Shown here: in pieces, positions 9,683 through 46,144 of the stretch
How the letters are laid out: each line of letters starts with the position of its first letter
How positions within the stretch are numbered: the stretch's first letter is position 1
DNA from: Axinella damicornis
Lineage: Eukaryota > Porifera > Demospongiae > Axinellida > Axinellidae
DNA: 64,000 bases
Assembly: GCA_963931865.1 (NCBI GenBank)
Contig: OZ007515.1
Span: forward strand, 9,716,685-9,780,684
Direction of reading: 5' to 3'
The notes under the pieces: generated by a model
What the model was told of the DNA's origin: nothing
Databases searched by the model: none
Seen by the model: only the letters and a program-made list of their open reading frames with translations
Made by a program: the position numbers and the translations under genes

Positions 9683-12582
9683 TTTGCTGCTCATGGCAGC
9701 TGTGCTTGCAGATGGATGCATTCAGCAAGAGTGTGATAAAACGCAGCTGATTCCAGCTGTTGAGAACCAGACAATCGATCTTCAGCCCTGTGACGTGTGC
9801 ACTGAGTGTCTATCCTCTGAACCTGATACCGTACAGGCAACGTGGTATTACAAGTTGCCAAATGGGTCACGAACAGATAACTTCAATGCAACAGTGCAGG
9901 GCAGAGGCTATGTGATCAGTGTAAGTTAACATGATGATGATGGAGTGTTATGTATAGTGCCATTAGGAGTTGTAAAAATTCCTGCCAATACAATTCGGGT
10001 GAGCTTGAGCATGCCCCACACTAGTGTGTTCCATGGATGCTATGGTCATTGGAAAACCATAATATGACATGGCAACATTCTTGAATACGTTTTGAAATTC
10101 ATGGCAACATATTCAAGGTCGAAAATGTTTCATGGGAGTTTCATGGCCTCCAGTCATACAGGTATGCCACTTTGTGGGTCACGAAATCCACCTATGAACG
10201 CAACCTTCACAGGCCTGCCAACTCTCACGGAAAATCCGTGAGTCTCACGGATTCAGTACTGATCTCACGCTCTCACGGTTAACCAGCTCAAACTCACGGA
10301 AATGCTGAGAGACTCGAGCTTGAACACATTCTAGACTACCGATCCGGCGATCGGCCGTTGGAACCAGTATTTTGGCACATGCAAGCCTTGGGATTAGACC
10401 AGGCAATAATTTCTTGCAAAGTCCATAATATTATGCGCATGCAGGCGCTATTTTGCACATGGACTGCAGCTCTGCATCAAGTCTAAAGGCACAGATGGAT
10501 GTCATATGGGTTTACCTTTCAGGCAAGGAGAATTCACAAAGGTTCGAGTCATTGTCGAAAGCCGAGTCGAGTGTTGCCAGATTGGTTTTGGTAATCCTTC
10601 ATAGCAATGAAAGGGAAGACAGGTTTCTTTTTCATTGAATGCCCTGTCGATCAAGTCTTGGAACCTTGTCATCTGAGAGACTGGCAAACACCGATTCCTG
10701 ATCATGCAAAACCTTCATTTTAATATTAAAAGCATGCAACAAAACAATATATGATGCTATGCATAAAAATGTTTATGGAAACTTGAACTTACTCAATTTT
10801 GAGTGTTTTTGTCTTAAAATACCCGCATGCTACATCTCATAGCCTCATTCCCAGGCCATCACCCAGCTTATCGTCGCCTGGGAATGATCGAGGCTGTACA
10901 TCTCAAGGTTTTTAAACTTCTGAAGTTGGCAGGCCTGCCTTCATGGGGCAAGTGGACTTCGCGGAAACGACGGAAACGGACAACGGAAACGGAAAACGGA
11001 CTGGACTGGAGTGGACAAAACTCTGTAAAATGCCTTTTTCAGTGTAGGACAGAAGCTAAGCATACTTATTCATTCACTAAGTTGCTTGCATTCTTTCCTC
11101 GAGTCGGTAGAGGTCAAAGGTCACATGCATATTTAATGAGCTTCAGCAATGAGTTTCAGCAATGAGATAGAGGAATTTTATTTCTGTTTTCTATGCTTCA
11201 GCAAAAGGCTGGAGTTTGATTTCTCAGTAAATAAGTGCTCTTCTAATCTTTCATTGAAGCTCAATATGCATGTGACCTTTGACCGCTACCGACTCAAGGA
11301 AAGACACGAAAGCAGGCTATGCAAGCAACTTAGTGAATGAATAAGTATGCTTAGCTTCTGTCCTACAATGAAAAAGGCATTTTACAGAGTTTTGGGTGAG
11401 TCCAGTCCACTCCAGTCCAGTCCGTTTTCCGTTTCTGTTTTCCGTTTCCGCGAAGTCCACTTGCCCACCTTCATGGGCTCTTTCATGGCCTATGAAAAAA
11501 TCCTGGGTTGGTTTTTCATAGAAATTTCATAGCTAACGTTCTGGTAGTGATATAGGTAGGGCTAAAAGCATCTAAAAGCATATTAAGCACTTCATGTATT
11601 CTGCGTTCGCCCTGACAAGTATTAGCATTAGCTACATGCACCTTGTTATTTCAATCACTCAGAAGAGCTGAAATGTCTTACTAGGTTTACGACGGGCAAC
11701 CGCACTTGCGCAACTCGCTGGACGCGCAACCTAGGTATTGCAGCTCATTATTAACGCGCATGTCACGTGAGGACCATGCGCTCTTGGTCGATCGATCGAA
11801 TCGAGTCAGCAATGGCGTCCAAAAGTAAGACAAGAGCTTATTACACTGCTAACAACTTCGCCAGCACGGTGAGTTTTGGCATGTAAGAGTCAGTGAACGA
11901 TAGCGACCACGGCTGTGTGGTCAGAATCTTTGTGGGGCCTTCGTATTGCTGTACTGGCAACCAACGTCAAAGAGCGATCGAGCAATGGCGGCCGATGACA
12001 CGACAAAAGCGCTTGTATCTCCACCACCAAGGTGAGTTTCAGCACAATTATTTTGTGGTTGTGTCACTGCATCATGGCGATCACGACGAAGCTGTCAGAA
12101 TCTTTGTAGGCCATTCCGAAGTAGTCAAACGTTTATTATTCATTTACGCGGCACAATTTTTCTCCTACCAGGAGTGTAACCCACATAGCACTGAGTATAC
12201 TAAACTGTCTTGCCATTCATCTTGGAACCTAGATGCTCTTGTTGATTTAGTTAGCCTCAGTTTGATGGCAGTAAGTCTATAAGTCTGTTCATTCCTGCAC
12301 GTTATCTCTTCTTGTATCCTTCATAGTATATGGTATGCTGCCCCTTTGTCCACAGCTTCTTGGTCATCCCTCACTTGTCACTCCCGGAGAATCACACACA
12401 CTCTACACAAGCTATTTGTACTCATGTGATTGGTTTCCTGGTGAACTACAAGACATTGAGATAACTCTTACACCAGTTGGTAAGAAATATTTAGAATTAT
12501 CACATACAAGAAATAATCTGTGCTTCCCGACTCCTGAACAGTTTGATGATAATGAATGCACTTAGGTGTGTGGCCTATGTGT

Positions 12583-12630
<48 letters not shown>

Positions 12631-15439
12631 CTCCCACCCCCAGTATTTGAGCTCCTCCAATTCTAGCTACTGCCAACAAAATTCAACTCTTCCTTAGACA
12701 CTTGATGGTACTGAAGCTTCTTACGTACTCACACAATCAACAACCAAGTTTGACAGCTTAGTCTGTTAAGCTACCTGTAGTTCTAAGTTCAAGGTTTGAT
12801 TACGGTCACATGCGGTATATATGTATTTATTGTTACAGGGGCGGCGGAACAGGTCCGCCAGACCCGGCAACTGCCGAACCAATGTTTTGACAAACCATGG
12901 TATACTTGCCAACATCAGGCGGCACTGAGCGTCCTCTGTGGATACATAGCTACGTACTGGGAACCAGGCTCGAGGGAAAGTCTGTTTACGAGTCCAGTTG
13001 CATTGCAGCAAAACTTGAAGTGTCTGGAGGACACATTATCCGGGCGCTTGTTGAGTACGATGGTTAACTTTGCGAAAAACAAACTGGCTATATACGTGCT
13101 AACTAATACCACGTGCAGTTTAGAAAGGGGTGGAGCCAGAAAAAGCAGCAGCGAAAAACTCGTAGCCAGTAGGCGTGGGCTACCAGGCAGCGCAGCGTAC
13201 ATTTCCTTTCCACGTCGAGAGTGAGACGGTCACGGATTGCACGGAAACCAGAGAGCAGTGGCAGTGCAGAGCAAAGCACGAAGGTGCTACGAGAGCCCAT
13301 CCAGGCAACTGAAAAATGACCCTGCAAAATTTTTCGCGCTTCGCGCAGAAGACAGATCGGCGCTACGCGCCTCTACACATTGCCTTCAACAGTGAACATT
13401 TTGCCCTACCAATCCAAAATTGCTTCCGCCGGCTCTGTGTTATAAGGTTCAAGTGGGCCAGCCAGCTCAATGTGAAATTCCTTCCTACGCCTATGATGCA
13501 CATGCATGCACATGCACCCACACACACATACGCACCCACACATGCACATGTCTCTCACACATACACACACCCACATTCTCATTCTTACTCACACAGATGC
13601 TACAATTGAATGTCCGAATAAAATGCCCGTTTCAGAGGGTAGCTCAGTGTTTATTTGGTGTGGGACAGGACTGTTAGATTCAAGAGTAGTTCAAACTACA
13701 TTCGTCTTCGGCGGTCGTAAGGGGATCTGTGCCTCATCGTACGTACATAGTGGCTGGAGGGTGAGCCGTAACGAATCCGAGCCCTACACTTGCGGACTTC
13801 ACATAGAAAATATTCAGCCTTCAGACAGTGGAGAATACTACTGTGAGGTGAACCTACCTGGTACACTCGACACAGTGAGATCAACCATTGTGCATGTCGA
13901 AGTCGCTTCAACAAACCCTAACCCTAACCCTAACCCTAACGTGTTAATATTGGAGACTGTCATCCCATCAGTCGGAGGATTGTTGATACTGGTGATACCA
14001 GCACTGATCATCACGGTAGCATGCATAGTCATTCGTAGGCACAGACAAGGACGACACCATGATGACCCTCATAGACAAGTACTGTACAACGAAGATGACC
14101 AGCACAATTTCCTCTTACCAAGAAATCCACCCGGTAAGATAATTTCTTTCAACTACATGAAATATTGTGCTTCATACTCTTGGATTAAACAAACAGTTTT
14201 CTTTGGGGGTGGTAGTTTTCAGTTATGGCAGCAAGGACCAGATCATATTCATGTCATACTCATACCAAAAATGGCCACTGGGATGGCTACCAATTCTCCC
14301 CTAATGCCTGTTGTAGCAAGATTCATGATTCACCATATATGGGCTGTAACATAAAAATCTTTGGTTGCTAGTTGCAAGCTATAACTCAGTTACAGAAACC
14401 TATACCATAGAACCAAGATTTCTTAATTTGTGCTGCACAGCACATCACCCTTGATCAACACCAAAGATGGAAGTGAATGGGTAGCTACCAGTTCATCGAA
14501 TGCACTTATTGGTGACAATGTATCTTGCACTTGCGCCATTGATTGCGAACTGTTTGACAATAATATATCACATGCAGTATGAAGTTGAAGTGCGTGTAAT
14601 GTTTACGTTTTATTGCATGTGCCAGGTTTACAGTATGGGGAGACAGATTGACATAGCTTTAGTGTGCATGGGCTTGCCACACAATTATATCCATCAGGAA
14701 AGGACAGAGAATATAATGTCTTTCCATACTCATAATTGTTGTCCATATATAGAGAAAATGCCAATCACCAGAACCAACTTCAGCTGCAGGTGGACCCATT
14801 GATGCAGCGGTGATTGGAGGAGCTGCAGCACTGCTTGCAAATAATCCAGTTGGACAAGGAGATACACGTAAGGGCATCACTATAGACAGTGAACTAAACA
14901 ATTAGATGTTATCACCTTTTATGATGCCAAATCTTAACAATAATGAGTTATTATAAACGACACTAGAAGCAAAACAAGATTGCTAATTGATTAATCCTTT
15001 CCCTGCCCAACTACTTCATGTGATGTTGTGCAGACGTATATTCAGCTTTGTGATGTCGTTTCCTACAAGGTCCTTGGGCGCATGCAAGGGTTCACCCACA
15101 CTGTCCGGCGAAGTGAAAACGCATGGCTGTGTTAGTAGAAAGCCCATGTTTAGCTCCAAGAAGGCCTTTTTGCATATTAAAATGCATAGACAATAGTTAT
15201 AGAAATCAAACTCTTGCACGCTTATGCTCATCACAGCTGCAGTTGATGAACCTTCCGGGGTTTATGGCACTTTGGGATCAACAGCTGCAGCGAGTAGCCA
15301 CAACGGAGGGTTGGAGGAAAGTAGACGTTCAGACGAGAGCACAAGTTCTCAACCTTCAAGCAATTCCAGTTCACAACCTAATGACATGGCTGAGGACCGG
15401 CGTAATGCTATGAGAAAATTGACTGAGACTGAGGTCTGA
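9683..15439 (+). CDS. R2: Ig-domain single-pass membrane receptor
   Basis: Exons are 9683-9920, 12356-12479, 13597-14133 and 15237-15439, with phases 2|0, 0|1, 1|1 and 1|stop, matching R1, R3 and R4. Exon 1 starts inside the signal peptide (LLLMAAVLADGC) and has LQPCDVCTEC and NGSRTDN. Exon 2 contains LYTSYLYSC and DIEITLTPV. Exon 3 has the V-type Ig domain (WCGTGLLDSRVVQ, DSGEYYC), an NPNPNPNPN stalk, LETVIPSVGG, a membrane span and RRHR. Exon 4 is the Ser-rich tail (SGSTAAASSHNGGLEESRRS). About 367 residues are visible. The upstream exon with the start Met was not found. A second terminal exon in the same phase lies at 14784-14905. It is convergent with Q1. Confidence 0.85.
10210..10937. 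mobile_element. TIR element, CAGGCCTGCCAACT ends, in R2 intron 1
   Basis: The left end CAGGCCTGCCAACTCTCACGG-like matches the complement of the right end AGTTGGCAGGCCTG. It is flanked by the direct repeat CCTTCA (10204-10209 and 10938-10943). The left subterminal part repeats a short CTCACGG word. It carries a nested TAGCCTC MITE (10840-10896). No coding potential. Confidence 0.65.
10840..10896. mobile_element. TAGCCTC-family MITE with exact 9-bp target duplication
   Basis: TAGCCTCATTCCCAGGC is followed by its imperfect complement GCCTGGGAATGATCGAGGCT. The 9-bp repeat TACATCTCA is exact on both sides (10831-10839 and 10897-10905). This is a very short family member. Confidence 0.8.
10946..11467. 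mobile_element. Foldback MITE, GGGCAAGTGGAC ends, exact 8-bp target duplication
   Basis: Same family as 8964-9439. The arms begin GGGCAAGTGGACTTCGCGG and end with the complement, followed inward by GGAAACGG-rich and GGACTGGAGT-type repeats and a shared AGGACAGAAGCTAAGCA block. CCTTCATG flanks both sides (10938-10945 and 11468-11475). The left copy of that site is also the right flank of the element ending at 10937. Confidence 0.8.
11810..12041 (+). other. Two short Met-initiated, splice-donor-ended frames
   Basis: Inside R2 intron 1, ATGGCGTCCAAAAG starts a frame (MASKSKTRAYYTANNFAS) that ends at a GTGAGT donor near 11870. A second, at about 11992 (MAADDTTKALVSPPP), ends at GTGAGT near 12031. 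Both lie in a locally duplicated sequence containing GTCAGAATCTTTGT. They could be first exons of an unrelated gene or transposon; no downstream exon was identified. Confidence 0.25.
12577..12630. repeat. (GT)n followed by a G homopolymer
   Basis: A GT microsatellite runs directly into more than 30 consecutive G in intron 2 of R2. The same GT-to-G arrangement occurs at about 46282-46346. Confidence 0.9.
12836..13437. mobile_element. CAGGGGCGG-family element with exact 5-bp target duplication
   Basis: The left end CAGGGGCGGCGGAACAGG pairs with the right end GCTTCCGCCGGCTCTG. The flanks are TGTTA (12831-12835) and TGTTA (13438-13442). The interior shares AGCACGAAGGTGC, CTGAAAAATGA and CGCTTCGCGC with 426-797 and 27641-28061. 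It is inserted in intron 2 of R2. Confidence 0.75.
14784..14905 (+). CDS. Candidate alternative terminal exon of R2
   Basis: This follows a CAG acceptor and enters in the phase left by R2 exon 3. It encodes about 40 residues, including AAVIGGAAALLANNPVGQGD, then a stop after SELNN. The end of the minus-strand Q2 membrane exon encodes almost the same peptide (AVIGGAAALMANNPVGQGD ... SKLNN). Use of this exon instead of 15237-15439 would give R2 a different cytoplasmic tail. It may instead be a relic from exon exchange. Confidence 0.55.
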
Positions 15440-16432: not shown

Positions 16433-19400
16433 CTCCATAGTCACCCATCCCAGGTTTGCGGTGGGTAGAATGCGGATGCTTAGGAATCAGGGAAGTTTTC
16501 TCATCCTGTTTGATACTTCGGGATGATTCAACCGACTCATGGAGGGGTTCTGAAGATGAGATCAAGATTGTCATGTGTCTGTGTATGGTCCACATGTAGC
16601 CTCATTCCCAGGCTCCCCCCCTGTGTGTGCGGTGAAGAAAACCCCCGTATTTTTCGTCAGCCCACGCAGGGGGAGGAGCCTGGGAATGAGGCTAGTCCAC
16701 ATGCACCATGGATGAGATATAGATGCAGTACTGTATAGTCATACCAGGGTGTGGTGGATAATCGGAGTCATCTGAGGTATCAGCATGAGGAGATGGATTT
16801 GTTTCTGATTGATCTCTGTCCGGATGATCTGCATGGAAGTGTTGATATGTCTGTATGTCCATGATCTGTACGTCCATGATCAGTGTAGAAACCCACAATG
16901 TTGCATATCAAAACCAAACGGCCAGTTGGAAAATGCTCTCAGTAGCTCCACTGTTATAACTTGCCTGTTCCCTTATTGCATTGTGTAGATCCATTAATTT
17001 TGACATTTGCTGGCATTTGAATGCTGTGCGTGTAGCTACTTGTAGGAGGGACCACAAGTATGATATTATTTCACATACATTTTGGCCTCATTAATTGAGC
17101 ATGACATCAAAGCTATGGCTAGTAGTCCCGCAGCTACAGAAGCCTAGGCAGAAACAGCATGCAGGATGATACAATCTCATCACATGTTGAATGCCTGCCT
17201 GCCTGAATGTGCAGGAGGTAAATTAACAAAATTCACTTGACAATGTGCCATTGTACTCAAGAGCTAGCTAGCAAGCATCAGGTGTTGCATTCAAGGGTCA
17301 AATTGAGCATCAGTCTGTCACTCAACAGTTTAGCATCAGGTAGTTAGCTAGTAGCCTCATTCCCAGGCTCCCCCCTGTGCGCGCGCGCGGTGAAGAACCA
17401 CCATATATTTTTCGTCGGCACGCGCAGGGGGAGGAGCCTGGGAACGAGGCTAGTTAGTTAGCTACATTGCACTCAAGAGTTTAGCATCACGTATATAGCA
17501 CTCAAGAGCTAGCTAAAACATCAGTTAGCTACATGTATATATTGCTCAAGAGTTTAGCATCAGGTATTGCACTCATGATCGAAGCATCAGTTACCCGCTT
17601 TTACCAAGATTACATACAGAGTTCCAACAAGTGATACCACTGTGATATCTACAGATAGTATATAGCTATGCCTCTTGCAGTTGCAATCAAGTCAGTGGCA
17701 ATTGAGGCTGGGGACATACCGCTCACCTGGACTCGGACTCCTGCTGCTTAGGTGAAGGGAACTCTGTGTGTGCACTGTCTCATCGTCACCTGTATCTTCA
17801 TCACTGCTGGTTGGTACTGGGGAAGGGGGCTCTATATGAAGAGATAAGAATCATTCTTTTGTGGTAAGCAGTAAAGAGCTGGACTGAGGCAAACGCGACT
17901 GGGCGCATGGTCAACCGGTGGATATGCTACAGCACCATTCGAATTCCATATCACTGTTATACATGCTTGTAACCATGATCAGCATTATCGTACGTATCCA
18001 TTTTAAGGGAATGTACAAGTAAACATTTGAAAAATCTCACCATGATGCATTTCCTGACCAGGGTTTTTCCTCTTCCAATAAGGTCGCAACACAACGGACA
18101 GCAAGACAGTCAAAACAATCACAACCAATGCTGAAGGAACAAGAGTTCCTATGAGCAGCGTTACTGGTATTACGTCCACAGTGGCAGGTTTGCTTGTGAA
18201 TTCACCAGCTTTACATATGTAGTCCCCACCATCCGAACTTTGAGCCTTATGCACTGTAAGCTTACAGTGACTCGCATTTCCGTGTACCTCCCAGTAGCTG
18301 CCTCCTGATTCAGTGTCGTTAGCGGTATATGAACTATCATCACAGGCTCTTTCTCGACCTCTAAGAATGAAGATCACTCTCTCATCTGGAGGATCATTTG
18401 CTGTACACTGTATCTCAATGTTTTCACCTTCATACACCTCGTCATTCACACAAATGATTATGGGACCTGCAGAGGTATACATATACGTGCATGTATGTCA
18501 AATTGTGATTTATTCTCCCTTCTCCTATGAATACAGCAAGCTTGATAGGCTCTAACATGTTTAATTTCCCTTCTACCATGAATAGACAGCAAGTGATCTC
18601 TTGATGACGATACAATTCTTGAGGTTGCATTGTTAGTCACTGAGGAACATACCGTATAGCACTTAAATTTCACAGGTCTAAAATATTTCATCGAAGATTA
18701 ATTTTATGACCCGTGTTGTGCACCTACAGCTACGTCGACAGAATATACGCATGACGGCTAGCTAGATGGCTCTGTTTGTGTACTGTAGTCGACCGGATCT
18801 ACATGCAGAGCTCCCCCTAGTCTCGTGCCCAGACCACCCCCCCCCCCCCCCCCCCCCCCCCCGAGGGGAGAGACGGTCTGGTGAACGAAGTCGAATTTCT
18901 TGGGCTTATTACCGGAATGTGGTAAGGACCAATGAGATTGTGAGATTGTTAATAATTACGTGGTAATCGCTTTGAATACTCATAAGCTTTTTTTTTTTTT
19001 TAGCCTTTGCCAATGCCAGTTTGCCCTTAGCGCTTGACTGTGTAAGGCAACGCTACGTCGTGGCGACAACTTCTGAAGACTCGATTGTGCTGGTTGTGAG
19101 CCCTGTGACATCGCTTATGAAGGATCAAGTTGAGAGCTTTGGAAGCGAGGTCAGTAAAAGGGATCAAGTACAACGAAGGGCCCCCTCTAGGCGCAAGCTA
19201 ATGCTGGAGTCGGACCAATGTTGTTTTAGTTATCTAAAACTGAAATAGTTTAGTTTTTGGTTTTAATTAGGTAGAAGTCACATTGTTTAGTTTAGTTTTA
19301 GTTTTAATTACTAAATCTCAAAAGGGTTAGTAAAGGCTCTTTTAGTTTTAGTAACCACCATTTTGGGTGATTTTCATTGTAGTTTAGTTGTAGTTTTAAT

Positions 19401-25100: not shown

Positions 25101-25189
25101 ATCATAGATAATTGGACTTCTGTCTGGGTGCATTATCATGTTAGCAACTGCTATTCATGTACCCTTGCATTGTTGCAAAATTGTTATAG

Positions 25190-33874: not shown

Positions 33875-34196
33875 TCAATTTCCACTTGGTTCTCCTGAAA
33901 CTTGATCTTGTTCTCTAGAGCTGTCTAAATCCTCATAGGATCCTGAGCTAGATCCAGAGGCACCCCGAGTGACTCCTAAGTCAGTACAGGGAGAAATCTC
34001 ATCACATTCACAGTGGTTATGGGTACAGATGGACATCATAGCTAGTAATATGTATTCAGCAGGACATAGCTATAGTGATTGGCTGATTGCAACCAAGTTG
34101 GAAACAACAGTTTAACTATGAGTTCACCTTCTTCCTGGTTAGACCTGGGTTTATAATCATGCTGCATTCGTGGTCCATCCAGTCTCTCATAGGTTC
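33875..34196 (-). CDS. Q2 cytoplasmic tail exons with two YxxL motifs
   Basis: Exon 34196-34128 encodes TYERLDGPRMQHDYKPRSNQ. It is a symmetric phase 1-1 exon with good splice sites. Exon 33975-33875 encodes GSYEDLDSSREQDQ and ends in a stop after EPSGN. YERL and YEDL are tyrosine motifs of the YxxL type, which can bind SH2 domains in immune receptors. The spacing of about 30 residues is too long for a classical ITAM, and the -2 residue (Gly) does not fit a strict ITIM. Confidence 0.65.
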
Positions 34197-37174
34197 CTGA
34201 ATGTACTGGAGGTACGGTTCAGAGTGAGTGACATCTCTAACATGTATCTAATTTAAAAGAGCACAGATCTGACATTTTAAATCCATATTATGTTGCCATA
34301 CATTGTAAGGTAATCACCGTACGCCAACTTGGTTGTATATACATGTGATGATTATCTCTAGAGCTGTATATATCGTGAATTCCATACAAAACTGATGGAC
34401 TGTAAACAAAAACATTCTGAACAGGTGAACATAGAACATCAAGCACTCGTTTATGTGCAGAGCACCATTGTGTACCAGGTCCAGATCTATATGATGTTGC
34501 TGAGATAAATGAAACATTAACCATGCCTTTGTCATATGAGTTGTAAACTGCTGATATGAGTACTATTGTACGTATAGTCCTTGAGGCTGGAGTACTGCAA
34601 CAAATGAAGGTGCTACAATTATATGGGCTGAGAGCTTTGTATATAATTATTTACCCGGAGAAGAATTTGTGCCACAAAGGGTGTACGTAATAGCAATGCT
34701 AATTGTTTAGTTTGCTGTCTATAGCCTTACGTGCATCTCCTTGTCCAACTGGATTATTTGCCATCAGTGCTGCAGCTCCTCCAATCACCGCTGTTCTTTG
34801 CCCACTTGCAAACTGTGGTGCAAGTCCAATGATCCTAGTATCTGTGGATCTGTATACAGCTGGAGTTGGTTGTGTACGTGGGTTGTCAGTACGACAAAGC
34901 TTACGATTGCGGTTTCTCCATATACAGGTTACAACAAAAAGCAACAACACCACAGTGACTACTATGGATATGGAAAGACAGATTTCTATGTCCTTTCCTG
35001 ATGGCTTAAAACTAGGTGGTACCACATTATCTTCTTCAGTCAAGCCGACATGGTTTGATGAAACTTTTTCAATCTTCCCATCTACCATGAAGAAGCCAAA
35101 GCATTCATAAGCACCACTGTAGTCATAACTGATGTTCTGGATTGCCAATATGCAATCGTAAGGTGATTTCTGCATCCTTTTTCCAACCAATGACCATGAT
35201 TGTGATGGATGGGCCTAGATTGGTTTGCAAGGCATGCTGCTGTGAAATTTTTGCCAGTACGAGATGTGTACTTGAATCTAAATTCCACATTGTGTAAATT
35301 GTTTGAGTGAGATGAGCAGCGGAGTCCAATGTGATTTGCCAGGACAATCCTTGCCTTTATGTTCAAGTTCAACTTCAACCCTATATGTAAGCAATAATAT
35401 TATGGTTAAATTTAATGGAGTGACAGTTATTAACTTGTGAGTTTGACATAGCTAACTATAATATTATTGCTGATGCTGTTTTCTGCAAGAGAGATGGAAG
35501 AAGATTCATTCAGCTACAGAGATGACTGCAACTTCTAATTCCCAGACGTCCAACGGGTGGGGGTGGGGGGGGGGGGGGGTTGTGGTTCAGAAAATGATGC
35601 AGTGGATTCCTGAGTGAGCACTACAGCAAGCATGCATACAGCTGTTTCAACCTATAATTGAGTCTCATTATAATATTATTATATTTAGTGTAGTGTAGCA
35701 CCCCGAGCTGACCAATATTCTGGTCCTCTGCCAACAGATATACAGAGTTACACAGACCGGCAGACTGGCATTCAAGCTTCATCGATCAATTGTATACAGG
35801 TTGCTCATTATTATGGTTATGAATGTCTTGATTAGGTATGCTAATGTGAAGCTTTGAATTTCCATAGCTGATACTCTAGAACTAAAAAGTGACAACTAAA
35901 GGGAAGTGAGTATCCCCTAACGCCTACCAGTGAAGGTATGATGATATTCTTCAAGGACTTAGTAAATAGATTTATTGAACACTCCATATTGATAACTGAC
36001 CTGCCACTTTCAGTTCCAACGTAATGTTACGCTGTGGGTTTACACAAAGTTTGGTGTAGCAGTTGTAGAAGTACATCAAGTGGAACAAGTATACTTCTCC
36101 AGGATGAATATTTAACTGTGATGTGTTGATCTGCAAAAAGCGACAATGAAACCATCTTGCTGAAAAGTGCACCCAAAGTGGGATGATTGCGAGTAGCCAC
36201 ATTCCCAGGCACCCACCCAGCTTTGTTTCACTTGCTGTCTCCCTCCCAGCTTTGCGTTCCTGGCTCTCACCCGGCCCAGCTTTGCGTCACTAGTTGCTGG
36301 CTCCCACCCAGCTTTGTGTCACTTGCTGCCCCCCACCCAGCTTTGTGATGCCTGCTGTCACATGCCCCCAGCATTGCAATGCTTGCTGCACTATGCCCAG
36401 CTTTGCATCGCTTACAGACCAAGTGTTAAAAAGCTGGAATGGATATTAGCTACCTTGGTAGAAATGGGTGTGTTTTGAGTTCAATAGCTAGCTTGTCGGG
36501 TGATAAGTTTAGGCACCTCATTGAAAACTGTGCACCGGAACAGGGAAATCAACTGGAAAATAGTATGAATTCTCTTACCTTCTTCCTCCTCATGCACAAA
36601 AGATAGCACCAGGACCCAAGGCTTTAATACTTGCAAAGGTCTGCACATAATGTATTGATAATTACATGCAATTCTGCATACCCAAAAATGGGATCCGTTG
36701 TTTTGCAGATTTAGTCCATGTGGATGGTAGGTATCATTCTCCAGCCAAGCACCACTGATGGTTTGAGTACCTGGATAGCAACACACTTTTGTAGGGTCGG
36801 GATTAGGAGAATAACAAGTTTGGAAGTAGATTATGCAGGTGCGAGTGACCCCCACTGATCTGGTTGTAGTGCCACACACGGGGTAGTCAGCAACAGCTCC
36901 GTAGGTCAATATCAGCAGACTGATCGTGAATGGGTATAAATCAGAACCATCAATTCATAGCAACAAGAGTGTATAATAATTTATTATTATACACTCTTGA
37001 TAGCAATTATTCATAGCACTAAACTATGTCCATTTACTATCACATGACCGCTTGTACACACAAAGCTCCACATGCATATTAATGTGCACAACATGCAGAG
37101 ACATGCAGGTATTACACGGTTTCCCACATGCACGCATGCAAGTCTGACCTTATAATGATGAGGAGGATGGCCAT
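33875..37174 (-). CDS. Q2: Ig-type membrane receptor with YxxL tail, one frameshift
   Basis: Minus-strand exons: 37174-37149 (MAILLIII, start), 36919-36682 (LLILTYGAVADYPVCG, Cys-rich), 36130-36001 (HPGEVYLFHLMYFYNC ... ITLELKVAG), 35380-34905 (Ig domain and membrane span), 34196-34128 and 33975-33875. Phases match Q3 and R1-R4 (2, 0, 1, 1, 1). The Ig exon has LRCSSHSN, SPYDCILAIQNISYDYSGAY and then ECFG; the span is LSISIVVTVVLLLFVVTCIW. In this exon the frame shifts by one base near 35180, in a run of A: the upstream half ends HNHGHWLEK and the downstream half starts RMQKSPYDC. This is either an assembly or sequencing error or a real lesion. Convergent with R3. Confidence 0.75.
34699..34904 (-). 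other. Alternative read-through tail of Q2
   Basis: If the GTAAGC donor after 34905 is not used, the membrane exon reads on for about 68 residues: AVIGGAAALMANNPVGQGD, then a stop after SKLNN at 34701-34699. The near-identical peptide at 14784-14905 supports this as real or once-real coding sequence. Confidence 0.5.
36195..36425. repeat. Degenerate tandem repeat, CCCACCCAGCTTTG units
   Basis: About six irregular units of roughly 40-45 bp, each with a CCCAGCTTTG core followed by a TC.CTTGCTG-like phrase, in intron 1 of Q2. The core resembles the inner part of the TAGCCTC MITEs (CCCAGCTTTTTGTCGCTTGC), so the array may have grown from one such element. Confidence 0.65.
36964..36999. repeat. Perfect palindrome, CAAGAG ends
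   Basis: CAAGAGTGTATAATAA and its exact complement flank a 4-base loop. It sits between Q2's signal exon and exon 1. Similar CAAGAG...CTCTTG palindromes lie at 42891-42946 and 56924-56986. Confidence 0.85.
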
Positions 37175-38353
37175 ATTGAGTTAGTGCATGCACACATGCA
37201 CACAGCTAGTTACCCATCAGATGTTGGTGTGCTTAGACCTGTAGAGTGCACATACACAACACATTCATCGCTGATTATGTGGCCAGGCTACATAGTAAAA
37301 TTGCTGTTCTCAATAACCGAGCTAGGAATGTAGTTTTGCTCCAATCAAGATTGAACACACACAGCTATTATGATGTACTGACATCTGAATGGGCTGCCAT
37401 CTATTAGCTACGTCTCTGCAAAATGTACTGGGGGTATTAGCCCAGGTTTGGGAATGAATTTGTATTTCTGACTCTCTCAGAAGCAATCCCTGTGACAGGG
37501 TTTCCTGCATCTTCAGCAAAAATAGCCTGAGGTGATTATCATGCATCCGCTATAATGACAGTGGATGCCAAAAGGCCCATTAACCACAGAAACTATAAGT
37601 ATATATGAACACATTGTGATAAGTTTGGCAAGGATTATTAGTCTCTTGAAACCCACTAGAAAAGAACCTGCATTGCAACTAATCCCGTTATGTAGCAGGC
37701 TATTTATACTAACATGACGTCCTGGCCTGCATTGCAACTAATACGTACCGTGCTTACCTTGAACCAATCAAGCATATAGATCGTCAGTTCACTGTTCCAA
37801 GCCATGCAGCCCTTCCCCCTTATACATAATTTACTCATCTCAAGGAAGTCCCCGGGAATTACCCCGCTTCGACTATAGGCATTACATACGTTGCGTAACC
37901 GTGTCCAAATGGCGCTATGGGTCGAGCTCCTGCTACATCAGAAATACGCGGATGAAGTCGGACACATGCACTGAACCCCACTCACTGTCTCAGACAGTAT
38001 ATAGTGCGAGACAGAGCCTGAATATAAATCCTCAACTAGGGGTGGTATGAAAACTTGACTTGTCCGCAGTCTCGTCAAGCTACCGCCGCCTATGAAGCGA
38101 AAACCGGACAACCGATGATGATTTCCAGAGTTGTCAATTTGTCGTACTGCACACTGTAAGTTATCCCTACTTGCTGCTCTGTGCATAACTTGTGCCTTCT
38201 TCTTTTTGGCACACGTCATGATTAGTGAAGGTGGATCTAGCTAGAAACTCGGGGGGTTCTAATTGGGTCAGCCACACCCATTTTATATCCTGCAGGACTG
38301 ACTTTGCTCATTTGTGCATGTCTGACAGACATACAGATAGATAGATAGATAGG

Positions 38354-38401
<48 letters not shown>

Positions 38402-38867
38402 CAAACAGACAGACAATCGACAGGTGGTTCCATCAGCAAGATTATACTGGCAGGTCTACCGGGAGCCTTGCATGTTCCCAGGCCATTCTCAGGTCCAGTA
38501 ATACGTATGCCATATGAAGGGGGAAGGCCTGGGGGGGTTGGTCACGTATATGTATAGGAGGAATGTCAACCCAGCCAAAGGGCTGGAGGCCAGAGTGTTC
38601 ACAAGGCAGCATCAACACCATTCGTGGTTCATGAGATTCTTTGTCGGGCACCATGCAGTGTCTGCAATCTGTCTTCCTGACATTACTGCTCGTGACCAGA
38701 TCTCCCAGGCCTTCCCCTCCATATATGATTATTTGAATGCTGCATCAATAGCTGGAGGTGGGAATAGCCTAGGAATGAAACTAGTAGTGTTAGCTATAGG
38801 TTTTGCTATGCTTGGAATTCCACTAGTTGGTTGTAGTAATCAACTGCGTGTCTAATTTCTTGTGCAG
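37175..38867. other. Divergent region between Q2 and R4
   Basis: Q2 (minus) starts at 37174 and R4 exon 1 (plus) begins at 38868, so the 1.7 kb between may hold both promoters. It includes a possible repeat at about 37845-38170 and a TAGA microsatellite at 38334-38401. A short hydrophobic frame at 38775 (MKLVVLAIGFAMLGIPLVG) looks like a signal peptide, but no donor in the needed phase 2 joins it to R4 exon 1. Confidence 0.4.
38334..38401. repeat. (TAGA)n microsatellite
   Basis: About 16 GATA units with one GGTA variant, upstream of R4. Confidence 0.95.
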
Positions 38868-41731
38868 TTTACTACTCCTGTCGACAGTTACACCCACAGA
38901 TGAATGCATAAAGGAGATGTGTGATAAAACACTGCTAATTCCAGCTGTTGAAGACTGGAGCATTGAGCTTCCACCGTGCGATGTGTGCACCGATTGTCCC
39001 ACTTTGCCTCAAACAAAGCATGCGTGGTGGTATTACAGGTGGCCAAATGGATCTCAGACAGCTGGCTTCACAGCAGAAGTTATGGATAACAGAAATTATG
39101 TAGTCAATGTAAGTTTGCTGCAATATAGAGCTATGGTTCTATATTACTGCCATCTCTGCAATAGGAATATGTGTACTGTACCTACACGGCTTCATGTTGA
39201 GCATATTCACTGCAAGTCATACTGCTGATTGCTCAAGTCATACTGCCTGAATGGTAGCTATATATAGTGACACAACCTTGGAAATCTCAGGTGCATGTGA
39301 GGATGTTGATGGTAACACGGTGGAACAGCTGCAGTGCATGGTCTGCATGCATTGCATTGTTATATCTGGCAATAGTGAAAGAGCTACTGTTTGCTGCGGT
39401 TGAATATAGTCATCCTTTATTTGTCATCACAATACAACCAATGAAGCTATGTGTGGTGTATTTCAGGAGTGGTGAGGTTGGCGAGGATGGGGACGACCTC
39501 TGCCTCCCTGCCTCTAACATTACATCTAGACTGCAATTGCCTGGTACAATATCAGTTCAGAGATTTGTATAGTTATACCCCGGTAGTTATTTTCACTTAG
39601 CCCTGTACCTTCTGTGGTAGCTGCATGTGTGTTATATTACCTTGTAATTTGTGTATAGCTATAGCTGTGTTTGTCTTTGTTGTCCACAGCTTCTCGGTCA
39701 TCCCTCACTTGTCACTCCCAGAGGATCACACACAATCTACACAAACTATTTTTACCTGTGTGATGGGATTCCTGGTGTGCTATACGACATTGAGATTACT
39801 CTGACACCAGTTGGTAAGACATTGTTGTTCACTTGCATGAGGCCAGAGCTAGCTATATGTTTTAGTATGAGTCACCCGCCCAATAATAACATATGACAGC
39901 CACTGGGTTATTTAGCCAGTGCAAAGCACAAAATGTTGTAAGTCATCCAGTCTACCCTGCCTTGCAGCAGCAACTAATCTATTTTCTTGACCATGCAGTG
40001 TTTATTCATTGCTTATGCGCGTCATGCAAGCACTAAGCAATTTCCCATCTCTTTTGCCACACACATGAAAGTTCATGCTGGTGCTGGCAATCAACCAGCC
40101 AGACCAGTTTGGCGAGAGATTGGTACTAGTACAATTTCCCACGGGTGTAGCTGTAGCATTCAGAACATTAATATGAAGCCATTAAGGTAGGAAGCTCGAC
40201 ATCGGTGAAATCGCGCATCTTTGCTCATAAATGAGATGACATCACTCACATAGAGTTATTGATCTGTTTAAATTTCCCATGGCGGCAACCGGAATCAGGT
40301 ATGTCATTTTGCTGTGGCTATAGTGGCCCGGGCCTTTCAAGTGCCAAATTGGCACTCTGATATGGCCGCATGGTACTTTGAAGAAATCTTAAAAGATATG
40401 AAAAAGCAAAACAGCTCATCTAACTTTATTGAATGTGGTGATGGCAGCCTATCCGGCCTATCAATATCGATGTTGTGTTATTTTCATGGGGTGTTTGTGT
40501 CATGCATGCAAGTCCAGTGCGCGTACAAACACACACATTGTGTGTACACACTCAACATACAGGTGCTACTCTTGAATGTCGAAATGAAATGCCAGTTTCA
40601 GAGGGCAGCTCTGTGGTCATTTGGTGTGAGACAGGACTACCAGATTCACGGAATACAGAAATTGCATTCCACTTTTATGGCCGTAGAGGGGAGTGTCCAC
40701 CTGCTGTACTGCAGGCCTCTGGTGGTCATAGCAACTGGATGGCAAATCGCAATGAAAGTGAACCGTACACATGTGGACTTTACATACAGAATATGCAACC
40801 CTCAGACAGCGGAGACTACTACTGTGAAGTTAGTGTACCAAGTACGAACATCACAGTGAAGTCAAGCTCTCTCTATATTGAAGTTGCTTCACCAAACCCC
40901 GTGGAAGTACCTTTAGAGATTTCCATCCCTGTTGCAGCTGGAGGTGGTCTGTTGATCCTAGTACTGTCTGTTATGCTTGTGGCATGCTTTGTAGTTCGAC
41001 GTTGTTGGATTAGACCAGTTGATGGAGATCAGATTCCTCTTATACAAGGCCAAGGTCAACATGGTAGGCCGGAGCTATACAGTACAACTAAACATTAGCT
41101 ACCTTAGTTTAATAGCCTCGTTCCAAGGCCATTGCCCAGCTTTTCGTCACTTACAATTTTTGTTCGCGCATGGGAGAGCCTGGGAACGAGGCTAAGTTTT
41201 ATATGAACACATTGTAATGTGGCCAAAAAGCATTACATGTACATGTACATGAGGTGGAGTTACTTTGCTGTACTGTTGTCTAGTGGCTCACGCAAATCTT
41301 CACCCAAGCCTGAGTATATTTATTGCTACCGTGTGTGTCCACTGCCAAGGTAACCAATTTCCCCCTAAAGTGAGATGAATACGTTTCAACCTCAGTAATA
41401 ACCAAAATGAATGTGTTTCTGTGCCTTGATAAGAATACATGACCTACCACAGAGTCTGATGAAACTATGTGCCAAGTTTTGCATAATAGTCTAGAAAATG
41501 TCTTAGCTTGGCTGAATTCGTTATACAATGTTCTCTGAAACTATAATGAGCTACACTATATTATACCTAGGGCCTGGGGCTGAAAACCACCAACAGGGTT
41601 ATGGCGCCTCAGGGTCCACGGTTGCAGCTGCTGGAGTAATAGGACCAACAGATAGTGTGATTTCAAGACCTGATGAAATGAGTGAAAGCTTTACTGATGA
41701 AGGGAAGCAATCAGAGACGACCAACGTCTGA
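38868..41731 (+). CDS. R4: Ig-domain single-pass membrane receptor
   Basis: Exons are 38868-39108, 39690-39813, 40563-41063 and 41571-41731, with the family phases. Exon 1 has LLLLSTVTPTDEC, LPPCDVCTDC and WWYYRWPNGSQ. Exon 2 has IYTNYFYLC and DIEITLTPV. Exon 3 has WCETGLPDSRNTEIAF, an extra Cys (GECPPAV), DSGDYYC, a PNPVEV stalk, LEISIPVAAGG, a membrane span and RRCW. Exon 4 has GYGASGSTVAAAGVIG and ends SETTNV. About 341 residues are visible. It is the most diverged plus-strand member. The start exon was not identified. Convergent with Q3. Confidence 0.85.
41113..41194. mobile_element. TAGCCTC-family palindromic MITE
   Basis: TAGCCTCGTTCCAAGGCC and GAGCCTGGGAACGAGGCTA form the arms, with an inner CCCAGCTTTTCGTCACTTAC like the other copies. 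The flanking duplication is not clear. It lies in intron 3 of R4. Confidence 0.8.
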
Positions 41732-43215
41732 TTTACTATTCTGCAAGTTCGTTTTTGTAAGTCTATGATTCAACCAAATCCTCTCTTGTATGTCTGTAAT
41801 CCTACTTTGGACTGTTTTACTTAGATTGTATTGCTCATGTTGCCTCAATGTACTTTTCTTTTTATTGTGCTCCTATAGCTTAGTAACCTGTATGCCACGA
41901 CTATTTTGATTGATCTTTGGTGACTATAAAGCAAACACACTGTACATGCCAACCTTATACGCCGTGTGTGTATCACCCAAACAATACAATGTCATCTATT
42001 TATCGTACATGTAGTGTGCGCAACAGTTATGTTGAGAACCTGACACCTGTGCAATATACATATAGCACAGTTGCAATATACATATTATAGCACAGTTGTA
42101 ATTGGAATGTTACCATGCACTGCCACACCATGAGTTCACTCGGAGACAGCTACCCTATACTAACTGAACATTGCTGTGTACCGTAATCTATCTATACTCA
42201 TATCTGAAAGGTCGATTTGAATTGTCTATCTTTCAAGTTCGGGTCTGAGACTTCTCTGATATCGAGCTATGGCTCAAAGATACAAAACATGGAACTTATC
42301 TCTTGTTACCCAGCCTTTGGAGGGAAATGGTAAGATCTATAGTGTAGAGCATGCTTTCAGCACCAAAATTCCACACAACTTATTATGCTCTCAAGTGTAC
42401 TGATATCTGGATACTGATGCCAACGTCCTTTTGAAACACACAGTGTGTATGAAATAAGCAAGAATTTTGTGTAACTTGAGAGCTCATCAAGACGCTGCCA
42501 TAGCAACTGGTTCTCTCCAATTGTCATGTTGCTATATAAACAGTACCAGTTTCAGTATTATCACTAGCTGCGTAATTAATTGGTTGGGTCAATTGGCTCT
42601 GACACCTGTCGTCAATTGGCTCTGACACCTGTCTTGCTCTAGCACTAAATGTCACTGAACTACCAAGTACTTGTTTGTGGTTTGTGCAGTTCCCCTGTTC
42701 ATCCATTTTGCCTGCTTGTAAGTATGTGTATGTCCAAGACTCAGTCAGGTTGCTCGTCCACTTGTAACATTACTCGCTCTCTCTCTCTCACTCACTGACC
42801 AATGGGAGGACAGCAATATATTATATATCCCTGTTTTGGCAGCAGCATGGTGTAAGAGTCAGGCAGCTGTATTCTCTCATTGATTGATTCCAAGAGCGCA
42901 TAAGTAGATCGTCCGCCCGGGCGGGCGATCTACTTATGCGCTCTTGTTGATTCTGAACATTGAATAGTGGACAAGCAACCGGAAATGAAAGTTCGCCTCT
43001 TGACTGATCACTATCAAGTTACTGATGTGGGCAATAGAGTAACTATATACGATCAAGTGATATATAAATACTGAACAGCTTACAAGTTGGATATAAATAA
43101 TACAAACCTGTGATATCAAGTCATTCATAAATTTGTACTTTGACACATTTAGTAGCTAACTGCATGATACTTCATAAAACAATGGAGATTGACAACACAC
43201 TGTACTTTATCAGTG
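41732..43215. other. Convergent gap between R4 and Q3
   Basis: No secure gene. A short frame at 42269-42329 (MAQRYKTWNLSLVTQPLEGN) ends in phase 1 at a GTAAGA donor and could be an orphan exon. A CAAGAG palindrome lies at 42891-42946. Confidence 0.4.
42891..42946. repeat. 56-bp palindrome, CAAGAG ends
   Basis: Two 28-base arms (CAAGAGCGCATAAGTAGATC and complement) meet at CCCGGG without a loop, with one mismatch. Such a structure could extrude as a cruciform. Confidence 0.9.
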
Positions 43216-46144
43216 TCAGTTGGTAACATTGGTAGCTCCGTATGTCACTGGCTGTTCATTCTCTCTGCGTGCTGTGCGCAAGAAGACAGATAGATAGACC
43301 ATGCCTGTTTCTCAATGTTCGTCAAACACACTCAGCTAGTGACTCAATGATATTCAATAATCCCACAGGTTTCACCCCCAGGATTATACCCTGATAAACT
43401 CCCCACAGGCATAGTCTAACAAGCATGTGGCTGATCTAAAGTCTCACCTCCACCCGTCCACCGTTTGGGGCGAGGAGAAGAAACCAGGTGAGTTTTCTCC
43501 CCATCTCCCACTTCTGCAGCCTCTAAACTATGACTGCTACCAGATCCTTGGGAACTGGGCACGGGGGAATGCTGGAGTGCTGAAAAAGATAATCACCCGT
43601 TTATTAACTCCAGCGTAAATACTTGAGTGTACCCCACTAGTGCGATATGAGTACAGGTTCTAGTGGAACATTGCATGTGTTCTGATAATTAAAAGGCTCA
43701 TGGGAAAACCTACCAAATAGATGATAAATTTGCAAACCCAAATGAAAATAATCTATACCTAATGCTCTAAATAAACACATTTATGGAAGTTCAGATCTAT
43801 TATCTGAATCATTGCATACCAGGGTGCAGGCTCAGCTGGTCATTCAGAGCAGGCCCTGCGTGTCTGGGAGGGTTAGTGTTTACTGATTCCCTGGACCCTT
43901 CAATGTCTCCATTGTCTTGTGGTACAACTAGTTGATCTGCAAGTGGAATAATGTGTGTCTATACAGAAGCATACTAATGGCTGTGTGTAGTTATAAAGCA
44001 TTTACAGCACAATACAAAAACTAACACTACAGTTATACTGAAAGAGCATGAGTTAGCTAATCTACAAATTCCTTGTATCAATGAATATTGAAACGGTGTT
44101 CTTCATCGATGCATACTCCATTGAGGCTAAAATGCTGACCCTCACCTTTCCCTTACTGTGCCGTTGCCTCTGGAAATGCAATGGGTATTGTATGTGCAGA
44201 TAATTCCAGTTAGGGGCTGGCATGGGAATGAGTTTATGCTAAGGTGGCACAGTAACGTTTCCTTGTTTAATATGGGGTGCACCGTTTTCTCTTGATGCTG
44301 GAACGAGACAAACGAGGACAATAATACCGGTGTACCTTACCTGGTAGAGGATGTGCCAGTCTGTCAATACGCTGGCGTAGATCGTTCAGACGGTTTCCTT
44401 GCTTGCGATTTTGTACTACCAGCCAAACCAAGGTGGACACGAGGATGAAGACGATGGCCAGTATCAGAACCCCTCCAGGAATAGCTGTCTCTAAGATTAA
44501 TGTTAACGGATTTGAACTTTCTGGAGTTGGAGATGGAGACACTGTAATTCTTAGTTTGTTCGACTTCAGTTCCTCATCTGGTATATCTACTCCACAAGTG
44601 TATATCCCAGCATCTGATAGTTGGACACTCGTTACTTCAAGCTGACAGTCATACGGATTCTCTTTAGTTCGACTCACCACCCACCTGCTGTCTTCACCAT
44701 ATGCATCTGATTCACAGTGTTTGCGACGACCTCCAAAATGGAAGACCGTATTCACCACTCGGGAATCCGACAGATGAGTTTTACATCGCAATAGTATATG
44801 ACTGCCTTTAGACACCGTGTTGTTGCTTTGGCGCAATAGTTCTGGAGCTGCAGTGATGTGTAGATAGCATTAAGGACTGGTAAGAAGTGATTGATAACAG
44901 CTAGGTAGGAGGGGAAGGGAGGGAGGGAGGGGGAGGGAGGTAGGGGAGGGAGGAAGGGGAGGGAGGGAGGGAGGGAGGGAGGGAGGGAGGGAGAGAGGGA
45001 GGGAGGGAGGGAGGGAGGGAGGGAGGGAGGGAGGGAGGGAGGGAGGGAGGGAGGGAGGGAGGGAGGGAGGGAGGGAGGGAGGGAGGGAGAGAGGGAGGGA
45101 GGGAGGGAGGGAGGGGAAGGAGGGAGGGAGGTAGGGGAGGGAGGAGAGGAGGGAGGAGAGGAGGGAAGTGGAGGGAGAGGAGTACACAACTGAAATTAAG
45201 TGCATGTTCAACTATACCTGCTAGCTACATGAGTTCCATAAACTGCAGTTGTATACTAGCAACACGCCTTGGTGCACCACTCTTGGTGGTGCACCAAGAG
45301 TGCATGAATTAGGCCTTACCACTGACTGGGATCACACTGACTTGAATGTCACGCATTTCATGATATTTAGCACTTTCCGAACAACTGTATGTATAAGTTG
45401 TGAAAACTGGGAGCTGATCTTCCTGAGAGAGTAGATGAGCAGGCAGCTGGAGAAAGGGTAAGCAGAGGTCATTAAGAATTGGTATAATTATGCAGCTAAC
45501 CGATTAGCTAATTTTCATGATATTATTGTGATGATGGCTAGTTGTCAGACATGAGAGCACTCCACAACTCTTGAGGTCATCATTATGTTGCCTCTACAAG
45601 CCTCTCGTTATAGTTAGCTAATATGCGTATGAATCATATTGCATGCATGACTATAGTATAATGTGTTGATGATTATTACTCTTACATCAATTGAATAACT
45701 TGTTTCAGTAATGTGGGCCGGATTGCTGTATATTTGCGATCTGTTTAGTGACCACCATGCTTCATGTATGATTTGCCTGCCAAGGCATCCTTGTGCTTTG
45801 CAATCATCACATGGGGGAAGTGTTATCCATTGTGTTTCGTTGGCTTTAACCGGCCTTGTCTGGGTACAGTTTTGATCAACACAAGTGTCCACATCTGCCA
45901 GCGTACCCGTGAAATAACTGTGCATGCGTGTGTACGATCGAGAGAGTGAGAGAGAGAGAGCAATTAGTGCATGCTTGACACCAATAATTATCATACGTAT
46001 TGTATCATGTGTGGCATATATTCATGACTTGACTGACTATATATGGTAGGGATAGTCACATGGTTTTGACAAACTGCTCTATAAAGAAAGATGTAAACAT
46101 TAATCTCACCCCATAATGAGAAACATTCGCATGAACGCACTCAT
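43216..46144 (-). CDS. Q3: Ig-domain single-pass membrane receptor, complete gene model
   Basis: Seven minus-strand exons: 46144-46110 (MSAFMRMFLIM, start), 45917-45686 (YFTGTLADVDTC, TLPPCDDCKAQGC, EAWWSLNRS), 45446-45320 (LPVFTTYTYSCSESAKYHEM ... IPVS), 44847-44341 (Ig domain and membrane span), 43936-43820, 43579-43448 and 43271-43216 (ARRENEQPVTYGATNVTN, stop). All junctions are GT/AG and phases agree (2, 0, 1, 1, 1, 1). The Ig exon shows LRCKTHLSDSRVVNTVFHFG, DAGIYTCG, LILETAIPGG and a long hydrophobic span. About 400 residues. LILETAIP and SDSRVV tie it closely to R1-R4, and its tail cassettes (EKTHLVSSPRPKRWTGGG, LHPG) resemble those of Q1. Convergent with R4. Confidence 0.88.
44908..45176. 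repeat. (GGGA)n microsatellite
   Basis: About 270 bp of GGGA units with a few GGGGA, GAGA and GGTA variants, in the intron between Q3 exons 2 and 3. Read on the coding strand it is an extended polypyrimidine run; translated frames here (SLPPSLPP) are spurious. Confidence 0.95.
45268..45298. repeat. Short palindrome
   Basis: CTTGGTGCACCAC and its complement with a 5-base loop, followed by CAAGAGTGCAT, the end motif of the other palindromes. Lies in an intron of Q3. Confidence 0.7.

Follow-up and report, generated by a model that had tools for sequence, protein, structure and literature searches.

A tandem array of ten alternating-strand receptor genes with an immunoglobulin-type domain in an Axinella damicornis genome assembly

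What kind of gene complex is formed where receptor genes face one another, pair after pair, along one stretch of a chromosome? The question is raised by a window of 64,000 nucleotides from the Axinella damicornis assembly GCA_963931865.1 (226.5 Mb in 120 contigs), covering positions 9716685-9780684 of contig C11. An initial annotation of this window, made from the letters alone, had noticed three tail-to-tail pairs of related immunoglobulin (Ig) receptors, each a plus-strand gene (R) facing a minus-strand gene (Q), and had proposed a recognition gene complex left by repeated duplication of that two-gene unit, with faster change of one partner. We read the window together with 80 kb of flanking sequence and sought family members by protein searches across the whole assembly; counts of members are therefore lower bounds. 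Splice sites were picked by eye and the resulting lengths verified by script. We prefer, with a probability of roughly 0.6, to read the locus as tandemly arrayed genes for type I surface receptors, R being a PDZ-anchored adhesion or recognition receptor beside related Q partners with other tails, the whole diversified by duplication and exon exchange.

The array comprises ten genes over about 70 kb, in the order Qa<, Ra>, Qb<, R1>, R2>, Q1<, R3>, Q2<, R4>, Q3<. All five R genes lie on the plus strand and all five Q genes on the minus strand. If orientations were independent, the probability of all R pointing one way and all Q the other would be 1/512, but tandem copies are not independent. The array reaches about 24 kb upstream of the window, where Qa(-), Ra(+) and Qb(-) are found. 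The three pairs first noticed, R2(+)/Q1(-), R3(+)/Q2(-) and R4(+)/Q3(-), are real: self-comparison returns repeated exon families on both strands, with conserved exon plans, and by their anatomy the members of all three pairs are genes. R1 is, as had been said, a fourth plus-strand gene, its exon 1 cut by the window edge. The limits first given to the complex, 9683 and 46144, coincide with the first base of R2 exon 1 and the candidate start codon of Q3. The spacing between facing genes, first given as 0.9-1.5 kb, is revised because R1-R4 carry a further tail exon, exon 4: it is about 1.3 kb for R2/Q1 (measured to the last readable Q1 exon) and about 1.7 kb each for R3/Q2 and R4/Q3. The convergent pairs, moreover, are only half the pattern, because there are four divergent neighbours (Qa/Ra, Qb/R1, Q1/R3 and Q2/R4) as well as a fourth convergent pair, Ra/Qb, upstream.

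Searching the rest of the assembly for more units, as had been suggested, brought those three further array genes and two relatives elsewhere: one on contig C12 with the same plan of exons 1 to 3 and agreeing phases, and one on contig C2, of which exon 3 was seen. The order of genes could also have been an assembly artefact. R2, R3, a gene like R1 or Ra, Q2 and Q3 all recur at 89-98% identity on another assembly, and for each of these five proteins the longest contig is 236,229 bp, evidently one and the same contig; their linkage is therefore no artefact of the present assembly.

How the array grew is best seen at its upstream end. In the coordinates of the extended sequence, 31333-47645 (Qa+Ra) is collinear with 47683-63642 (Qb+R1), orientation included: the 13 matching pieces are 69-95% identical, and the eight that measure at least 575 bp are 83-95% identical. 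A gap of 38 bp separates the two copies, and the R gene is interrupted between its exons 3 and 4; at this break R1 has an exon 4 and none was found for Ra. Because the copied block spans Qa+Ra and Qb+R1, the unit is a head-to-head Q-R pair, and the convergent pair Ra/Qb marks where two units meet. As originally proposed, a two-gene unit was thus duplicated at least once, but the unit was head-to-head rather than convergent and was broken inside R. The distance between start codons is 821 bp for Qa/Ra and 850 bp for Qb/R1; for Q2/R4 it comes to about 940 bp (by subtraction, from a candidate Q2 start). Three such short divergent intergenic regions would suit a shared promoter.

The exon plan is constant throughout. 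Exon 1 has phase 2-0 and exon 2 phase 0-1 in all nine cluster genes where both are present (Ra, R1-R4, Qa, Qb, Q2, Q3), and exon 3 has phase 1-1 in nine of nine (Ra, R1-R4, Qa, Qb, Q1, Q3), that of Q2, which is frame-broken, being read by eye only. GT/AG sites giving the same phases are present in every case read. Upstream of all five R genes stands a short start exon with a CT/GTAAGT donor (the slash marks the splice site), chosen among several candidates per gene by its DNA conservation. In P0002, one of 39 proteins returned by three homology searches (the window's own being P0001, P0011, P0012, P0015 and P0029), exon 3 follows directly on exon 2 where the junction was predicted, and because that junction is spliced, P0002 derives from RNA or from a processed copy.

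Exons 1 and 2 each encode half of an extracellular domain, D1, present in nine of the ten genes, and exon 3 encodes a second, Ig-type domain, D2, followed by a transmembrane segment, in all ten. Pfam places D2 above cut-off as V-set in R2, R4 and Q3 and under other Ig models in R1, R3 and Q1; Qa falls below cut-off, and pieces of Q2 were unmatched. Fold prediction had been suggested for both parts of the ectodomain. For exon 3, a model of R4 D2 from a 22-row alignment has a predicted V fold (mean predicted local distance difference test score 89.6, predicted template modelling score 0.81), and its best matches are antibody and T-cell receptor V domains; exons 1 and 2 were searched by sequence and profile only. 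No Alr or JAM structure is among the 50 matches listed for the R4 model, which excludes neither. Two extra cysteines are invariant in the 22-row alignment, one of them absent from the wider set A1. Where tested, D2 is a V-type Ig domain. D1 has invariant cysteines, a tryptophan, an asparagine and a YxYxC motif, and the pattern of C, W and YxYxC is no more than suggestive of Ig.

The tails divide the two kinds of gene. Those of the four R genes in the window share YxxxGST, as YGTSGST, YGTLGST, YYTSGST and YGASGST. They are encoded in exon 4 on the plus strand: in R1 a Ser-rich tail (4200-4390) with the PDZ-ligand-like end ETEI, in R2 (15243-15439) ending ETEV, in R3 (32803-33023) ending VAVV and in R4, where the exon is putative (41571-41731), ending TTNV. 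Three of the four (R1 TEI, R2 TEV, R4 TNV) match the class I PDZ-ligand pattern, as a pattern only, and neither of the two Q tails read to a stop, Q2 and Q3, does so. The label of class I PDZ ligand follows common usage and a published table of junction proteins (PMC10706136). Qa and Qb have polyproline in their tails. By eye, Q1 and Q3 share a tail exon, Q1 exon 5 (16743-16828, minus) resembling Q3 exon 4 (43820-43936, minus, phase 1-1), both with the end HPG/GTATG. The whole tail of Q2 lies in its exon 3. At least four kinds of tail occur in the array. In addition, the last intron of R2 contains, on the R2 strand, a copy of the Q2-type transmembrane and tail exon (14690-14905, plus), with 101 bp at 89% identity to Q2; its transmembrane part is decayed (by eye), and its last 32 residues are open, in phase and 81% identical to the Q2 tail. 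The copy is a relic or, possibly, an alternative tail for R2.

A second source of variety is indicated by R4 exon 2 (39690-39813, plus). Compared with each of the other R genes, R4 differs at 50-59% of synonymous sites in exon 1 and in the Ig part of exon 3, and at 14-21% in exon 2. The deficit has a Fisher p of 3.6e-5 to 1.8e-4 in four comparisons that share R4 and so are not independent. In five pairs free of R4, exon 2 is not lower in synonymous divergence, and it is higher in R1-R2 and R2-R3 (p 0.034 and 0.037). Two other causes were considered. Nucleotide constraint on exon 2 was rejected, the synonymous sites of exon 2 being, in five pairs among Ra, R1, R2 and R3, at least as divergent as those of the other exons, and purifying selection as the cause is ruled out by the ratio of nonsynonymous to synonymous rates (dN/dS, omega), 0.32-0.85 in exon 2 for the R4 pairs. 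Over the 21 residues of exon 2 that R4 shares with P0002, R3 agrees with it at 20 and P0002, which is of its own type, at 17 (by eye); exon 3 of R4, unlike exon 2, is closer to P0002, and the exon-2 similarity ends near the exon boundaries. Exon 2 of R4 has thus undergone exchange with one of the other R genes, whether by gene conversion or by exon replacement.

The idea of one faster partner can be set against trees and rates. The D2 tree, built from 12 rows of our own and 20 of the 39 returned proteins after partial and near-duplicate proteins were dropped, unites Qa, Qb and Q2 with P0033 and P0027, sets Q3 in a clade with P0022 and P0024-P0026, R4 in a clade with P0002-P0005, and Ra, R1, R2 and R3 in a clade with P0006-P0009; Q1, the C12 relative and P0010 are long-branched and unplaced, and deep forks are weak. 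The D1 tree (10 own rows and 5 further proteins outside those 20) likewise separates Q2, Qa and Qb from both Q3 and R. Proteins of other sources that correspond to these types are 68-76% identical for the R4 type, 59-66% for the Q3 type and 52-54% for the Q2 type and fall inside the respective clades. Synonymous divergence (dS) within Ra-R1-R2-R3 ranges from 0.07 to 0.39, apart from a value of 0 for exon 2 in the Ra-R1 pair. Because other-source counterparts sit within the type clades, the types are older than the duplications among these four R genes. Between copies of the same age, dN is 0.024 (exon 1) and 0.047 (Ig part of exon 3) for Qa-Qb, against 0.055 and 0.052 for Ra-R1. The view of Q as one fast partner is therefore not borne out, with Q2 grouped beside Qa and Qb, Q3 in another clade, Q1 unplaced and Qa-Qb dN not above that of Ra-R1. 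If the other-source counterparts were all from one species, the Q types would nevertheless evolve faster than R4 (52-66% against 68-76% identity). The suggested dN/dS comparison of exons 1-3 was run between paralogues; among Ra, R1, R2 and R3, omega is 0.41-0.81 in exon 1, 0.25-0.61 in exon 2 (one pair undefined) and 0.54-1.18 in the Ig part of exon 3, values that mean weak constraint and are no proof of positive selection.

On the preferred reading, receptors of this family consist of a signal peptide, a cysteine-rich D1 made from two half-exons, a membrane-proximal Ig domain, one transmembrane segment and a variable tail, and at least one step of array growth was the copying of a head-to-head Q-R pair that may have a shared promoter. 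The gene plans, the array itself, the block duplication and the exchange affecting R4 exon 2 are established from the sequence, and the V fold of R4 D2 is predicted; the functions that follow are inferred. R would bind a partner surface through D1 and D2, probably in an adhesion-like manner, and most R proteins would be clustered by PDZ scaffolds via their C-terminal ligand, as JAM and CAR are. The Q proteins, whose expression may start from the intergenic region shared with R and whose tails are of polyproline or other kinds, might meet related ligands with different signalling. The source of variety would be not one fast partner but the copying of genes together with the exchange of exons and tails. 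A role in recognition is a reasonable but unproven candidate.

Several results weigh against this reading. None of six spliced D1 sequences exceeds any Pfam cut-off, the sole Ig-named match being sub-threshold (the C12 relative to a glycosyl hydrolase 49 Ig-like domain, E 0.038); D1 has no convincing match among PDB chains (best E 0.26), and profile comparison of D1 with D2 gives a probability of 0.7%. Two Ig domains per receptor are therefore unproven. The AVV end of R3 does not fit the class I PDZ pattern. P0002, a spliced protein related to R4, continues beyond the R4 exon 3 donor point with sequence that is also open in P0003 and P0004, and because of this read-through the R4 exon 4 tail is perhaps unused. 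The immunoreceptor tyrosine-based inhibition motif (ITIM, [SIVLT]xYxx[ILV]) occurs in none of the eight tails scanned (R1-R4, Q1-Q3 and Qa, those of Q1 and Qa perhaps incomplete); the same eight show no activation motif (ITAM) pair and a single YxxPhi (R2 YGTL). For Ra exon 4, the best downstream match (E 0.014) is on the other strand and the next has E 0.13 over 14 residues. The start codons of Q1 and R3 are 6.7 kb apart. The four divergent and four convergent neighbours tie, and because R2 and Q3 are without a divergent partner, neighbour counts alone do not decide the unit. Ra-R1, which stands outside the exon-2 controls, also has a low exon-2 value, with 0 synonymous differences there against 4.5 in exon 1 and 5.0 in the Ig part of exon 3, numbers too few to tell.

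Among the alternatives, an ordinary JAM/CAR-like adhesion family, expanded by neutral tandem duplication and with no special recognition role, is quite possible, if not our choice. As in JAM, CAR and CTX proteins, the type I ectodomain is small and includes a V-type domain, and it is joined to a single transmembrane segment and a candidate C-terminal PDZ ligand; in CTX the distal domain is split over two exons, as D1 is here. The order of those proteins is a membrane-distal V domain and then C2, and it differs from the one here, where the V-type domain is proximal and the distal domain unrecognisable as Ig. The members found number 12 genome-wide besides weak matches, a lower bound, which suits such a family, and the R tails resemble the C-termini tabulated for JAM4 (-NTTVV) and CAR (-DGSIV) (PMC10706136). 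The low constraint on the ectodomain, with omega up to 1.18 in the Ig part of exon 3, and the variety of tails would be unusual for housekeeping adhesion.

The omega values among Ra, R1, R2 and R3 given above, together with the V-type D2, the varied tails and the separate types with counterparts in other sources, would fit immune or symbiont sensing by germline-diversified pattern receptors that take no part in self-recognition. We regard this as somewhat doubtful: PDZ-ligand-like ends are commoner in adhesion molecules (examples in the table of PMC10706136). Vertebrate paired receptors such as Siglec-11/16, PIR and KIR offer a parallel in neighbouring related receptors with differing tails and exchange between members, the last as described for Siglec-11/16 (PMC5701461). 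R and Q ectodomains here are 22-39% alike in the comparisons made, unlike the near-identical ones of those receptors, and neither ITIM nor ITAM was seen in the tails scanned.

An allorecognition complex, in which homophilic receptors of high polymorphism settle whether grafts fuse or are rejected, as Alr1 and Alr2 do in Hydractinia, is unlikely. Clustered, diversified Ig receptors with exon exchange speak for it, and sponge grafting implies a polymorphic genetic system (PMC5450542). Allelic diversity, a check that had been proposed, was compared for five allele-like proteins of the second assembly, in exon 3 alone and with no genomic background for comparison. Identical residues without gaps number 135/138 for Q3, 166/173 for R2, 152/158 for R3 and 191/215 for Q2, and the R1/Ra-like copy matches Ra at 149/161 and R1 at 146/158; gap columns for Q3, R2, R3, the R1/Ra-like copy and Q2 are 0, 3, 8, 3 and 12. 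The copies of these five genes thus differ by a modest 2-11% in exon 3, and they may come from a second individual or from a closely related species. For loci of the Alr type one would expect much larger differences in the binding domain. Of the first proposal, the clustered, diversified Ig receptors are supported, and allorecognition stays a conjecture in view of these modest differences. The Hydractinia complex, with 40 (PMC11876637) or 41 (PMC11999971) Alr genes according to these sources, is likewise one of clustered, tandem-duplicated type I Ig receptors with unusual Ig domains. It differs from the present array, which has ten alternating-strand genes of two kinds, an orphan D1 over two exons, no ITIM found, modest allele-like differences and PDZ-ligand-like R tails.

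Less probable again is a full sponge recognition complex behind graft rejection, in which R and Q would be co-expressed from head-to-head promoters, D1 would be a new recognition fold, and exon-2 exchange would act with tail swapping, the Q2-type tail exon captured in R2 being an instance. The model first put forward, in which a convergent R/Q unit was copied repeatedly and its Q evolved fast, can draw on the three convergent pairs of the window and the fourth outside it, and on Q-type counterparts less alike than R4-type ones if these are from one species, but is very improbable given the head-to-head unit of the one datable copy, Q types in separate clades older than the R1-R3 splits, and Q not faster in the same-age test.

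Candidates for sponge self/nonself discrimination are mainly aggregation factors, and to our knowledge no gene has been established as the deciding one. Ten receptor genes grouped compactly at a known chromosomal place, with their exon boundaries defined, ectodomain and tail clearly separated and, in three pairs, a short shared intergenic region, would make the question directly testable; if the host is a sponge, the array also sets an unrecognised extracellular domain beside V-type Ig in a lineage that branched early among animals. The grafting study cited above indicates a polymorphic recognition system, with the word immunoglobulin nowhere in its main text (PMC5450542), and a 2025 review ties the Ig superfamily of sponges mainly to cell adhesion and intercellular recognition (PMC11999971). 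A sponge receptor with Ig-like domains is described in Geodia cydonium, a receptor tyrosine kinase (PMC12018476); here the genes are clustered in pairs and the exons read hold no kinase domain. No published sponge Ig-receptor cluster was found in open-licence literature, most subscription papers lying outside that search. As far as searched, the array is previously undescribed, and its general kind, clustered Ig receptors, is already known. Prokaryote and viral collections gave no relatives (one R1 exon-3 query each; pattern matches arose, and tblastn bore none of them out).

The remaining exons are placed as follows in window coordinates. On the plus strand, R1 has exon 1 (first half of D1) at 1-189, beginning 48 bases before the window, exon 2 (second half of D1, phase 0-1) at 1254-1377 and exon 3 (D2, stalk and transmembrane segment, phase 1-1) at 1601-2137. 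R2 begins with exon 0 at 8503-8522, holding the start codon and the start of the signal peptide (MVSKFIL), followed by exon 1 (first half of D1) at 9683-9920, exon 2 at 12356-12479 and exon 3 at 13597-14133. The corresponding exons 0, 1, 2 and 3 of R3 are at 27008-27036, 29050-29284, 31130-31253 and 31445-31945. In R4, exon 0 is at 38115-38155, exon 1 at 38868-39108 and exon 3 at 40563-41063.

On the minus strand, Q1 has tail exon 4 at 17725-17831, exon 3 (D2 and transmembrane segment) at 18041-18466, and a signal peptide with about 22 residues of a truncated D1 at 20156-20300; neither a full exon 1 nor an exon 2 was found for it. Because the phase-1 donor of the truncated D1 fits exon 3 directly, Q1 may be a one-Ig receptor. 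Q2 exon 3 (34699-35380), which holds D2, the transmembrane segment and the tail, has its frame broken near 35180 in this assembly, with an intact counterpart, P0027, in another; exon 2 is at 36001-36130, exon 1 at 36682-36919, and exon 0, a candidate start (MAILLIIIS) with a weak donor, at 37149-37174. Q3 has tail exon 5 at 43416-43579, exon 3 (V-type D2 and transmembrane segment) at 44341-44847, exon 2 at 45320-45446, exon 1 at 45686-45917 and exon 0, a candidate start (MSAFMRMFLIMG), at 46110-46144. Between Q1 and R3 lies a long open frame of a long interspersed nuclear element (LINE)-type retrotransposon (22713-25100, plus; reverse transcriptase PF00078, E 5e-34), which may have pushed this divergent pair apart.

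Other sequences in the genome deserve mention. With the Q1 exon 3 query, weak matches (E 2e-4 to 0.07) form two local groups at C5:13548427-13653794 and C13:1325021-1377532 (L020-L023, L027, L028), perhaps other receptor arrays. The C2 relative (L018) has many counterparts elsewhere (P0021, P0023, P0028, P0030-P0032, P0034-P0037), closely alike in the Ig ectodomain and different in transmembrane segment and tail (by eye), which may point to an expansion of their own in which tails diversified. In the window, neither the Rfam nor the tRNA scan gave a match. Downstream of the array, two large arrays of an 18-base repeat (49816-51132 and 53489-54645) are inverted, with arms of more than 1.1 kb at up to 89% identity, and enclose an OTU-like protease frame (51625-52635, minus; named by eye) and a 30-base repeat array (52628-53150). 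An ankyrin-type repeat frame of 1215 amino acids (57781-61428, minus; named by eye) has internal repeats of 339 and 444 bases and, towards its 3' end, a run of N; the whole window contains 200 N. On the mitochondrial contig C120, at about 24.9-30.3 kb (L067, L069), cox1 is matched in three pieces with TGA read as Trp, a gene form that resembles demosponge cox1 and, taken with the genome size, tentatively suggests a demosponge host. The same region has GC-rich repeats, and between the pieces of cox1 are intron-like frames, LAGLIDADG-like or like reverse transcriptase (named by eye).

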